Shown piece by piece: positions 21,072 through 28,192 of a stretch of DNA of 64,000 nucleotides. The notes beneath the pieces were generated by a model. That model made no database searches and was not told the DNA's origin. It saw only the letters and a program-made list of their open reading frames with translations. The translations under genes and the position numbers were made by a program. The DNA is taken from NCBI GenBank assembly GCA_958295985.1, contig OY282432.1:3815001-3879000 (forward strand), read 5' to 3'. The first letter of the stretch is position 1. Each line of letters opens with the position of its first letter. The stretch comes from an uncultured Candidatus Binatia bacterium. Lineage in GTDB: Bacteria; Desulfobacterota; Binatia; UBA9968; JAJDTQ01.

Positions 21072-22267
21072 CAGATGACTCCCTCCGCCGACAACACGCC
21101 GAGGTCGGCCTCGCTCAACCCGAGATCGCCGCCGAGAACCTCCGCGTTATGCTGGCCCAGCAAGGGAGCGGGCCGGGGGCCGCGGCGCTCGCCGTCGAGC
21201 AGGAAAGGCACGCCCGGCTGGAAGAAGGAACCCAGCACCGGGTGCGATACCGTGCCGAAGAAGCCTCGCTCCACGATATGCGGGTCTTCCATGAAGTCCC
21301 GCGGCGAGTTCACCGGCAGCGCCGGCAAGCCGTGCTTCTGGAGCAGCACGGACAACTCCTCCTTGCCGTATTGGGAGGTGAACGCCGCCACCATGGGGTT
21401 GAGCCAGTCCGCGGCCGCGCGCCGTTTCATGTTGATCCTCAACTCCGGGTCGTCCAGTTCCGGCGGATGCCCCTCCCACATGTCGAGGAAGATGGGCCAG
21501 TGCCGCTGGGTGGCGAAGAACGAGATCCAGCCGTCCTTGCACGGGAACAGGTTGGCCGGGGCCACGTGCTGGTGCTGGCTGCCGGCGCGCTTCATGAGCC
21601 GTCCCTCGGCCGAGTAGGTGAAGGCCACGTGCTCGTGAAGCGCCATGCTGGCCTGCACCGAGGCGTCGATGTGGGCTCCCAGGCCCTTGGCTTCTCGCTG
21701 CCATAGCGCCAGCAGGATGCCGAAGGCGGAGTAGAGACTGGTGTACACGTAGGATTGCCCGCCCGGGGGAACACACGGCGCCATGCCGGGGTCACCGCTG
21801 ATGAACAGCAGGCCGCCCATGCCGTTGGCCACCAGGTCCGGCGCCAGATAGTCGCGGTAGGGACCGTCCTGTCCGAACCCGGAGATGGACGCCAGCACGA
21901 GCCGGGGGCGGCGCGCCACCATCTCACCGTAACCGAGCCCCAGTTCCTCCAGGTAGCCGGGCCGGTGACTGTCGATCACGACATCGGCTTTCCCCACCAG
22001 GTCCAGCAGCATGTTCCGGCCCGTCTCACGCGAAAGATCCAGCGTGATGCCGCGTTTGCCGGAGTTGAAGTAGGCGAACCGGAGGCTGCCCTCACGGTTG
22101 TTCCGGCCTTTGGCAAACGGCGGTTCGGTCCTGAGGTCGTCCCCCGACGGCGGCTCGACCTTGACCACGTCCATGCCGAGGTCCGCCAGCACCTTGCCGC
22201 AGAAGGCGCCCATGGAGGTGCTGAGGTCCAGCACCCTGAAGCCGGAAAGCAGGGACTCTCCGCTCAT
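21071..22267 (-). CDS. Class III CoA transferase, first half of a split pair, catalytic Asp replaced by Ala
   Basis: A 398-residue CoA transferase corresponding to the N-terminal half of the double enzyme. It begins GFRVLDLSTSMGAFCGKVL and keeps the CoA-binding pattern, but the catalytic Asp position is Ala206 (HIDASVQASM where active enzymes have DVSMQD). The start at 22267 overlaps the stop of the acyl-CoA dehydrogenase gene as ATGA. Since the partner carries Glu at the same place, this subunit may be structural or regulatory in a heterodimer. The longer open frame up to 23059 is a shadow of the dehydrogenase gene. Confidence 0.9.
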   Translation of the reverse strand: MSGESLLSGFRVLDLSTSMGAFCGKVLADLGMDVVKVEPPSGDDLRTEPPFAKGRNNREGSLRFAYFNSGKRGITLDLSRETGRNMLLDLVGKADVVIDSHRPGYLEELGLGYGEMVARRPRLVLASISGFGQDGPYRDYLAPDLVANGMGGLLFISGDPGMAPCVPPGGQSYVYTSLYSAFGILLALWQREAKGLGAHIDASVQASMALHEHVAFTYSAEGRLMKRAGSQHQHVAPANLFPCKDGWISFFATQRHWPIFLDMWEGHPPELDDPELRINMKRRAAADWLNPMVAAFTSQYGKEELSVLLQKHGLPALPVNSPRDFMEDPHIVERGFFGTVSHPVLGSFFQPGVPFLLDGERRGPRPAPLLGQHNAEVLGGDLGLSEADLGVLSAEGVI

Positions 22268-24984: not shown

Positions 24985-26364
24985 ATGGATTTTCCCGCAC
25001 TGACCCGGACTGGAGCCCTGGAGTTCTTCTCCGAGTTCGGAAAGACGATCTACAACCCGCAGGGCATCCTGTACTGGACCCGCAAGGCCAAGGCCAAGGC
25101 CCGGATCAACGCCACCGTCGGGTCCGCCCGGGGGCCGGAAGGCGCGGTGTACCCCGAGGCCGGAAGGCGCGAGATCACGCTCTGCGCGCCGCTGATCCAC
25201 TCGTACTTTCAAGGGCTGGAAACCGAGGAGATCTTCCCGTACACGCCGGAGACCGGCACACCGGCTTTCCGCTCGGCATGGAGGAACTGGATCCTGGCGC
25301 GCGCGGGCCAGGAGTCCGAGCGGCTCGGAAGACAACTGCAACAACCGGTCCTCACCCCGGGGATCACAGCCGCCATCAGCATCTGCGCGCGGATGTTCGT
25401 AGACCCGGGCCGGTCCATCATCGTGGCCGACCGGCGCTGGGAGAACTACGACCACGTGCTCGGCAAGAACCTCGATCTTCGCATCGCCGATTTTCCGTTG
25501 TTCGATGACGGCGACCTGAACGTGGATGGCCTGCTTTCCGTCATCCGACGGGTGTGGCTCGAACAGGACACAGCCACGGTGTTGCTCAACTTTCCCAACA
25601 ATCCCACCGGATTCTGTCCCTCCGTCGCGGCCGGACACCGGCTGGTGGAGTCACTGGAACAACTCGCGGAGGGGACCGGGAAGCGGCTGGTGCTGTTGTT
25701 CGACGACGCCTACGAAAGTTACGTCTACGATCCCGCGGCCATGCAGTCGTCACTCTTCTACCTGTGCCGGCCGCGGCCGAATCTTCTCCCGGTGAAGCTG
25801 GACGGGGTGACCAAGGAGCTCCTGTGGTACGGCGCGCGCGCCGGCGCCATCACCCCGGCCTGTCCCGACGAGTGGCTGGACGGGGACGGCACCGGGACCT
25901 TGGCGGCGGAGCTGGACAACAAGTTCGGGGGCGTCAACCGAGGCCTGTTCTCCAGCAGTTCCACGGTGACTCAATCCGTGGCCACCAAGGCCATGGCGCA
26001 GATGGACCGGCTGCTGGACGAACGCCAGAGGACCGTCGATCTGTTGAAACGCCGGTACGAGACCCTGAAAGACGAACTCGGGAAGATCGACACCGAGTTC
26101 GTCACCGTGGAACCGTTTCACGGCGGCTTCTTCTGCTTCGTGAACTTGCGGCCGGAGTCGGGGCTCCGGGCCACGGACGTCGCCAACCACCTGCTCGATG
26201 AGCACGGCGTCGGCACCGTGCCGTTCGAAAGTGACACCATGAACGGGCTCCGGATCGCCTACTGCAGCGTGGACCGCGAGGACCTGCCGGAACTGTGCCG
26301 GAGCCTGGCGCAGACCGTGGAGGAGCAGGCGCGAGCCGGCAGGAGGGCGCATGGGGAGGCTTGA
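24985..26364 (+). CDS. PLP-dependent class I/II aminotransferase
   Basis: A 459-residue fold-type I aminotransferase. Signatures are LNFPNNPTGF (PLP and substrate contact), LLFDDAYESYVYD with the cofactor-ring Asp and Tyr, and the Schiff-base Lys in LDGVTKELLWYGARAG. The C-terminal domain has FHGGFFCFVNL. It resembles aspartate/aromatic aminotransferase relatives; substrate unknown. The 3' end overlaps the next gene (SDR) by 14 nt, indicating co-translation of the pair. Confidence 0.9.
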   Translation: MDFPALTRTGALEFFSEFGKTIYNPQGILYWTRKAKAKARINATVGSARGPEGAVYPEAGRREITLCAPLIHSYFQGLETEEIFPYTPETGTPAFRSAWRNWILARAGQESERLGRQLQQPVLTPGITAAISICARMFVDPGRSIIVADRRWENYDHVLGKNLDLRIADFPLFDDGDLNVDGLLSVIRRVWLEQDTATVLLNFPNNPTGFCPSVAAGHRLVESLEQLAEGTGKRLVLLFDDAYESYVYDPAAMQSSLFYLCRPRPNLLPVKLDGVTKELLWYGARAGAITPACPDEWLDGDGTGTLAAELDNKFGGVNRGLFSSSSTVTQSVATKAMAQMDRLLDERQRTVDLLKRRYETLKDELGKIDTEFVTVEPFHGGFFCFVNLRPESGLRATDVANHLLDEHGVGTVPFESDTMNGLRIAYCSVDREDLPELCRSLAQTVEEQARAGRRAHGEA

Positions 26365-27082
26365 CGGAAGGGTCGCCGTCATCACCGGCGCCAGCCGCGG
26401 CATCGGCCGGGCGGTGGCGCTGGCTTTCGCTCGCGAGGGCGCGACCCTCGCCGTCGTCGGGGTGCGGGACCGGGAAGCCCTCGATGCGGTGGAGGGGGAG
26501 GTCTCGGCGCTGGGAGCCGAATGCATGGCGCGGATGGTGGACGTAGGCCGGCGGCCGGAGGTGGACCGGCTGGTGGCGGAAGTCGAGGAACGCTGGGGGC
26601 GCATCGACGTCCTCGTCAACAACGCGGGCATCCTCCGGATGGCGCGCTTCGAGGACATTACCGAGGAGCAATGGGACGAGACCATGAGGGTCCATCTCAA
26701 GGGCACCTTCAACGGGACCCAGGCCGTCCTGCCCATCATGAAACGGCAACGTTCGGGCAAGATCATCAACCTGATCGGGCCGGCCGCGTTGCGGCCGTCC
26801 AACGGCGTATCGGACTACGCCAGCGCCAAGGGCGGCATCATCACGTTGACCTCCAACGTCGCCAACGAGATGAAGCCCCACAACATCCAGATCAATTGCA
26901 TCTCGCCGGTGGCGGACACGCGGATGACCGACGCCATCGCCGAGTTCCGCGAGCGCGAGGGGATTCCCGGGGCCAGACCGAGTCCGGTGCCGCCCGAGGC
27001 CGTGGCGCCGGCGTTCGTCTTCTTCGCGTCCAGCGACAGCGATTACATTACCGGAGAGGTCCTGGGCTTCAACCGAAGGTGA
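26351..27082 (+). CDS. Short-chain dehydrogenase/reductase
   Basis: A 243-residue classical SDR with the nucleotide-binding TGASRGIGRAVALAF, VNNAGI, and the YASAK catalytic Tyr/Lys motif. The usual catalytic Ser 13 residues before the Tyr is replaced by Gly (NLIGPAAL), so activity may be altered. It overlaps the aminotransferase gene by 14 nt. A perfect 14-bp palindrome (GTGTGCCGGCACAC, 27086-27099) lies just after the stop, but no T-tract follows. Confidence 0.9.
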   Translation: MGRLDGRVAVITGASRGIGRAVALAFAREGATLAVVGVRDREALDAVEGEVSALGAECMARMVDVGRRPEVDRLVAEVEERWGRIDVLVNNAGILRMARFEDITEEQWDETMRVHLKGTFNGTQAVLPIMKRQRSGKIINLIGPAALRPSNGVSDYASAKGGIITLTSNVANEMKPHNIQINCISPVADTRMTDAIAEFREREGIPGARPSPVPPEAVAPAFVFFASSDSDYITGEVLGFNRR

Positions 27083-27208: not shown

Positions 27209-28192
27209 ATGCTCCGAAAATCAGCGACGGCGTGGCTGGCCGCCGCGGTGCTGGCGGCGGCGACGACGGCCGCGGCTCAGCCCATCGGCTACCAGGCGGT
27301 GCCGCGGGACGCGTTTCCGGTCTTCGACGACCCCGAGATGCTGAGCGCCGCGGAGGCGGAAAAGCAGGAGGTCATCTTCGACCGGGACGTGATCATCGGC
27401 GTGGCCCACAACGGTGCGGCCAAGGCGTACCCCATTACCATCATGGGCGTCCACGAGCTCGGCAACGACACCATCGGAGGGGTGCCCATCGCCGTCTCCT
27501 GGTGACCCTTGTGCCAAACGTCTATCGTGTATAGACGCAAACTCGACGACAAGGTGCTGAGCTTCGGACACGCAGGTATCCTCTACGAGAACTCGTTCAT
27601 CATGTACGACCGGCAAACGGAATCGCTTTGGGTCCACGTAACCGGGGAGGCGGCGTTCGGTCCGCTCAAGGGGAAGCGGCTGGAGTTCATGCCGTCCACC
27701 GTAACGAGCTGGGCGAACTGGAAGGAGAACTATCCCCGTACCCAAGTCCTGCCGGGGTACCGGCGCGGGGGGTTCATGGGGACCTACGTCGGCCCCTTCC
27801 AGAGCGACATCCTCGGACTCGCGGTGGTCGTCAAGCTCAAGGGCAAGCTCTACCCCTACCGGGTGCTCGAGCGGCAGAACGTGGTGAACGACGAGTTCAA
27901 CGGGGCGAACGTGGTGGTGTACTACTCGCCCGGCGATGCAACCGCGACGGCCTGGCGACGGGAACTCGACGACCGTGTGTTGACGTTCGGGCTATCGGAC
28001 CGCAAGGATGGTCAGGGCAACGTGCTGTTGCGCGACAAGGAGACGGGAAGCCTGTGGTCGTGGCTGCGCGGAGAAGCCGAGGAGGGCCCCCTCAAGGGAC
28101 GGAAACTCCGACAGCTCCTGTACAACCCGATCCTGAACGACCGCTTTGTCGCCTTCTATCCGGGCGGGCCGGTGTTCGATATCATGAACTAG
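27209..28192 (+). CDS. DUF3179 family protein, predicted selenoprotein with in-frame TGA as selenocysteine
   Basis: Read through the TGA at 27503-27505, this is one 327-residue exported protein. A signal peptide (residues 1-22) is followed by DUF3179. The family motif around its CxxC reads GGVPIAVSW-TGA-PLCQTSIVYRR, so residue 99 falls on the first Cys of the CPLC motif and becomes U-x-x-C. The downstream part (228 codons) is intact, in the same frame, and carries the rest of the family pattern (VLSFG, MYDRQTESLW, GPLKGKRL, TVTSWANWK). A second copy of that pattern near residues 250-310 reflects an internal duplication, in which UPLC aligns with SPGD. A stem-loop resembling a bacterial SECIS follows the TGA. 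GAGGTGA precedes the ATG. Alternative: a nonsense-mutated pseudogene. The biochemical function of DUF3179 is unknown. Confidence 0.88.
27503..27554 (+). promoter_or_regulatory. Candidate bacterial SECIS element after in-frame TGA
   Basis: Immediately after the TGA the RNA can fold into a two-part hairpin. The apical stem CGTCTAT/ATAGACG (27519-27525 with 27531-27537) is perfect and closes a 5-nt loop CGTGT with G at the second position. An outer stem CCTTGT/ACAAGG (27507-27512 with 27549-27554) is also perfect. Twenty nt separate the TGA from the loop, within the spacing known for bacterial SECIS elements. The stem is built from codons such as TCT, TAT and AGA that are rare in this GC-rich window, suggesting selection on the RNA. 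Confidence 0.8.

Follow-up and report, generated by a model that had tools for sequence, protein, structure and literature searches.

At positions 27209..28192 (+) of the window, by which we mean the whole stretch of 64,000 nucleotides of Candidatus Binatia DNA analysed here, lies a gene for a DUF3179 protein (PF11376) of 327 residues with a predicted selenocysteine at residue 99. The PF11376 profile matches the gene product with 240.3 bits (cut-off 27, E 3.9e-71), and in a search of the genome this match runs on across one TGA, codon 99 of the gene (27503..27505, +). In the alignment of homologues this codon, in the context VSW-U-PLC, sits at the family cysteine of the motif W-C-P-L-C, the window version being W-U-P-L-C, which fits UxxC/T. 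The N-terminus of the product resembles a signal peptide by eye. The protein contains two DUF3179 repeats, the second half (residues 196-327, window 27794-28189) repeating the first with 34% identity over 104 columns; the Sec/Cys motif has been lost from the second repeat and UxxC is present in the first only. In 8 of the 33 rows aligned, the second Cys of UxxC gives way to Thr, Ala or Ser. An AlphaFold2 model of the two repeats (pLDDT 93, pTM 0.88) places U99 at the end of strand 92-99, with the next strand formed by residues 104-109. The model hints at a tandem Rieske-like fold, in that the 50 matches listed by VIA-align, judged by their titles, seem to be Rieske-type or Rieske-like proteins (best Z 8.7, 92-97 residues, mainly 208-319); this match falls in the second repeat and does not imply a function. 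Foldseek returned no match at E <= 0.001 (best E 0.019), and no relative was found among solved structures by sequence (best E 0.67).

DUF3179 with the motif UxxC/T is listed as a known selenoprotein family (PMC9312934, PMC13188914), the first of these sources crediting the DUF3179 selenoprotein to a study of Olavius algarvensis symbionts. The window gene shares with the listed proteins the Pfam family PF11376 and the position of selenocysteine as the first residue of UxxC, and differs from them in its hosts, which as sampled here include SAR324 and the Candidatus Binatia genus of the window. We take the gene as a new member of this listed family, and its hairpin, described below, as an unusually well-supported case of a signal that is ordinary in kind. 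The review text on the family in these two sources contains no SECIS analysis for DUF3179; screening for SECIS elements has been applied to Sargasso Sea data (PMC1088965).

Since the open reading frame is formally split at 27505, the TGA could also be a true stop, left by a pseudogene, a frameshift or an assembly error, and the hairpin that follows it a coincidence in GC-rich DNA; by chance, 14 of the 1539 TGA triplets in the window are followed by a 7-bp hairpin that satisfies the model used here. The homologues argue against this reading. Relatives of the window protein were found at 11 genome_contigs loci, in 46 of 193 relatives, in 24 of 52 SAR324-group genomes and in 45 of 395 genomes sampled from the phylum of the window. 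For 121 of 122 loci it was possible to place the Sec/Cys site, with TGA in 68, a Cys codon in 52 and TAT in one (L070). TGA thus stands at the family Cys position in more than half of the placed loci, including members of SAR324 and other members of the phylum, and is kept in 9 of 9 genus-mate copies. Protein conservation goes on past the TGA, and the hairpin covaries in the same register among homologues, as described below. Conservation of the TGA within an otherwise intact frame largely refutes the true-stop reading, which we consider very improbable. The genetic code is not changed either, as TGA is the ordinary stop of the neighbouring SDR-like gene 26351-27082 (gene type assigned by eye).

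For the comparisons that follow, L070 (TAT), L103 (site not covered) and L072 (too short) were dropped and identical 48-nt rows were merged, which reduced the 68 TGA loci to 50 rows and the 52 Cys loci to 48 rows. Weaker places, some of them with TGA, were kept outside the set (for example G542:C12, G402, G285, G250 and G513), as were 27 records of plasmid relatives, mostly haloarchaeal by name and all below 60% identity; two of the haloarchaeal plasmid matches (H7 and H11) carry the database name 'DUF3179 domain-containing (seleno)protein'. Some genomes combine both forms of the gene: SAR324 genome G199 has four TGA copies and one Cys copy (L084, L104, L131, L132, L134), and G009 (L050, L065, L066, L073) likewise has TGA and Cys copies. 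In L124 (G454) two in-frame TGA codons are listed within the DUF3179 match.

The genome that carries the window (G000) encodes what would be needed to read UGA as selenocysteine. It contains a tRNA-Sec with anticodon TCA (73.1 bits, gathering score 47) together with selB (376 bits, cut-off 242), selA (580, cut-off 268) and selD (377, cut-off 125), and selA, selB and selD lie next to each other (L018/L011/L020, G000:C1:762822-767101). The selD gene has an in-frame TGA of its own (AGUAAK) followed by a hairpin, and in this combination resembles the DUF3179 gene; it differs in its loop (GGTCC, with G first, on a stem of 7 bp) and in its longer spacing of 32 nt. Presence of selB does not separate the two classes of genomes: among those searched, 39 of the 43 that carry TGA copies and 34 of the 37 with Cys copies only had a match above the cut-off. 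In four TGA genomes (G009, G010, G031 and G204) no selB match over the cut-off was found, and one of these, G010 (L051), is given as 100% complete. Hairpins can also stimulate readthrough of a stop codon, and the UGA might accordingly be decoded by a near-cognate or a suppressor tRNA instead of by tRNA-Sec. With the full sel machinery and tRNA-Sec encoded in the genome, and with the site being a conserved Cys in relatives that lack the TGA, decoding of this kind seems to us scarcely credible.

The candidate element itself is an apical stem-loop at 27519..27537 (+), in which CGTCTAT (27519-27525) and ATAGACG (27531-27537) form seven perfect pairs around the loop CGTGT (27526..27530, +), five nucleotides with G at position 2 and the presumed contact of SelB. 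The spacing between the TGA and the loop is 20 nt (27506-27525). All this agrees with the initial annotation, both in the sequence and in an RNAfold prediction for 27503-27560, which at -11.6 kcal/mol returns exactly the apical stem and a second, outer stem of 6 bp (27507..27554, +; CCTTGT 27507-27512 with ACAAGG 27549-27554). The outer stem had been taken as additional support for the hairpin. Although it is present in the window sequence, all six of its pairs are found in only 3 of 14 relatives (close relatives and SAR324), and for this reason we regard it as accidental, probably not part of the element and lending it no support.

The hairpin conforms to what is described for bacterial SECIS (bSECIS) elements, which in a 2026 model have a loop of 3-9 nt with G among its first two nucleotides, a stem of 4-16 bp and a UGA-to-loop spacing of 16-37 nt (PMC13188914). 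Like these, the window element lies directly 3' of an in-frame UGA and within the coding region, and its loop length, stem length, G at loop position 2 and spacing are all within the model. According to the same source the loop is mostly of the form N1 G[G/U] N N2 with pairing of N1 and N2; the window loop differs from most elements in this respect, as C stands opposite U (by eye), a point against the assignment, the model giving this pair for the majority of elements and not for every one. A search with Rfam returned no family at the gathering threshold in the window, and for the segment, with E values up to 10 allowed, there was a single match, to an unrelated family. The window holds 15 other candidates in which a TGA is followed by a hairpin of at least 6 pairs, with open frames on both sides; the one at 22266 (-) was rejected, since its TGA terminates an ORF which by eye looks acyl-CoA-dehydrogenase-like.

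How unusual the hairpin is depends on the part that is considered. The 58-nt segment 27503-27560 as a whole is not particularly stable (z -0.43), with 64 of 200 dinucleotide shuffles and 2074 of 3000 synonymous versions folding as well, so that by comparison with shuffled and synonymous controls its folding energy is ordinary, an outcome that the initial annotation had named as speaking against its claim and that applies to this long segment but not to the apical hairpin. The apical hairpin, however, is unusual: among 20,000 synonymous versions drawn with local codon usage only 48 had a model hairpin with at least 7 Watson-Crick pairs that obeyed the loop and spacing rules. By exact count, the probability of a perfect 7-bp stem in this register, given the protein sequence TSIVYRR and local codon usage, is 0.0012, and the energy of the 25-nt core (-6.9 kcal/mol) was reached by 69 of 3000 synonymous versions. 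The codons in the stem are likewise atypical, as had been pointed out from the sequence: TCT occurs once in the 2256 codons of seven window genes, namely in the stem, AGA is 1 of the 21 Arg codons and TAT 3 of the 14 Tyr codons of the DUF3179 gene, whose GC3 is 0.86.

The ordinary energy of the 58-nt segment would be in keeping with a situation in which selenocysteine is inserted at codon 99 but the hairpin is a mere by-product of protein and codon constraints, SelB making use of something else. Whether the RNA structure, and not only the protein, has been selected can best be judged from the homologues, where rows with and without TGA offer a paired control. No gaps were needed to align the 50 TGA rows. 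With the 7-bp register held fixed, 82.0% of their cells are paired, as compared to a mean of 65.3 in shuffled alignments, a value reached by none of 500 shuffles. Changes on both sides of a pair occur in 62 cells as against 23.1 after shuffling, and the covariation score is 0.409 as against 0.149 (0/500). When the 3' side is slid out of register, pairing falls to 28-45%. The number of pairs changed on both sides, one of the five measures, was unexceptional (65/500). In the 48 Cys rows, by contrast, the same register pairs only 39.3% of the cells, which is about the shuffle mean (433 of 500 shuffles were as high), and a perfect 7/7 stem is present in 20 of the 50 TGA rows but in none of the 48 Cys rows even though the protein motif is alike, these counts not being independent events because the rows are related.

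A search for hairpins that was free of the register and allowed one interruption gives a similar picture, as it places the start of the loop 19-22 nt after the TGA in 48 of 50 TGA rows compared to 14 of 48 Cys rows; the loop is CGTGT in 33 of the 50 distinct TGA rows and GGTCT in nine. In L068 and L069, same-class homologues that read UTLC instead of UPLC, a good hairpin is lacking at the usual place, and the model finds in them a candidate of no more than 4 bp. These two may possibly use another kind of SECIS. Two further results would sit well with the by-product reading, namely that strong hairpins were found by the free search in some Cys homologues (L056, L087, L135 and L095) and that RNAalifold, run on all 50 TGA rows, yielded no consensus structure. 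The latter probably reflects the presence of rows with shifted, bulged or other hairpins.

Codon choice in the stem points in the same direction as the covariation. Where the window gene and the SAR324 gene L075 (69% identity) share a residue in codons 104-110, their codons agree in 6 of 6 cases as compared to 94 of 184 elsewhere (one-sided p 0.02), and for L076 (69% identity) the corresponding values are 6 of 7 and 75 of 182 (one-sided p 0.025). Both rare stem codons, TCT and AGA, recur in two SAR324 homologues with a protein identity of 69%. Four Cys pairs showed no such synonymous excess at codons 104-110; some TGA pairs were non-significant as well, with p up to 0.26 among close relatives and up to 0.17 among others. 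Conservation of these rare codons between Binatia and SAR324, together with the absence of the perfect stem from all Cys rows, makes the by-product reading very unlikely. Selection on the RNA structure itself, as claimed in the initial annotation, is strongly supported by these alignments, because covariation is seen across the TGA homologues and is at the level of shuffled controls in the Cys homologues, even though RNAalifold alone was negative.

Taken together, the findings lead us to see in the hairpin, with a probability of about 0.93, a bacterial SECIS element which causes the UGA of the DUF3179 gene to be read as selenocysteine; binding of SelB and incorporation at codon 99 are what the sequences would predict. 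We envisage that at a ribosome which has reached the UGA at 27503-27505, SelB-GTP carrying Sec-tRNA-Sec would be bound to the CGUGU loop on the 7-bp stem 20 nt downstream, that SelB would then deliver selenocysteine to yield a probably exported DUF3179 protein with the motif U-P-L-C, and that in the absence of the hairpin signal release factor would end translation at the UGA.

But how would a protein accommodate a recoding signal in its own coding sequence? Placing a SECIS element within a coding sequence can bring mutations into the encoded protein (PMC11431864). As the stem lies within the coding sequence, codons 105 and 109 would have to be near reverse complements of each other. In the window gene codon 105 is TCT (Ser105, 27521..27523, +), the reverse complement of AGA (Arg109, 27533..27535, +), with which it pairs in the 3' half of the stem; these two codons together form the centre of the stem. 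Full complementarity of these two codons, with GU allowed, is found in 23 of 50 TGA rows and in 0 of 48 Cys rows, and it is achieved with rather different residues: besides TCT/AGA (Ser/Arg) there are GTT/AAC (Val/Asn), GGA/TCC (Gly/Ser), GGC/GCC (Gly/Ala), GGT/ACC (Gly/Thr), GCC/GGC (Ala/Gly), GCG/CGC (Ala/Arg) and others. A search of open literature with a limited set of terms brought up no description of this coupling.

The change of the family Asp to Arg at residue 109 had been ascribed to selection on the RNA, and this remark fits a wider pattern across the TGA rows. None of the 20 TGA rows with Asp or Glu at 109 has a perfect stem as opposed to 20 of the 30 rows with other residues, and Asp or Glu at this position is less common in TGA rows (20 of 50) than in Cys rows (29 of 48). 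The former result follows from residue 105, which is Gly, Ala or Ser in 48 of the 50 TGA rows; codons for these three amino acids are unable to pair with those of Asp or Glu at the middle base. The 20 rows with Asp or Glu also set these genes apart from the bSECIS pattern, in that their stem is never perfect. Then again, 8 of the 48 Cys rows have Arg at 109 too, so that the residue alone is not diagnostic, and the second repeat, which lacks a TGA, reads WRRELDD at the matching place. Arg109 may therefore have been chosen at the level of the protein, with selection on the RNA acting merely on the choice of Ser, Tyr and Arg codons, and we regard this as a serious alternative whose odds nevertheless fall somewhat short of even in view of the pairing constraint between residues 105 and 109. 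We lean slightly towards the reading in which the SECIS stem has repeatedly steered the evolution of the protein, codons 105 and 109 covarying as reverse complements and Asp being lost where a perfect stem is needed. The RNA constraint would then be the cause of the amino acid changes at two residues near the selenocysteine, a step that we infer from the pattern of residues. Lineages would comply either by using rare codons and changed residues, or by retaining the Asp at the price of a single mismatch or bulge.

The distribution of selenocysteine in the family has itself changed several times. On a tree of 119 sequences the Sec label requires 6 changes, of which at least 5 are forced by well-supported branches. 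The gene of the window genus is 67-69% identical to SAR324 genes (L075-L077, L083) and at most 47% identical to genes from its own order, and in the tree it is nested among SAR324 sequences, far from most sequences of the same order. Nesting within SAR324 and distance from its own order suggest that the gene has been transferred horizontally between the window genus and SAR324 lineages.

Our work provides a paired control, within one family with and without TGA, which shows how a recoding signal places limits on codons and amino acids together. On the practical side, the DUF3179 SECIS elements gathered here could serve as a seed for mending gene calls that are split in genomes of Binatia and SAR324. 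With its many Sec and Cys homologues, a nearly fixed spacing and several changes between Sec and Cys, the DUF3179 family lends itself well to use as a natural test case, and these properties should make measurable what it costs a protein to carry a SECIS element inside its own coding sequence.
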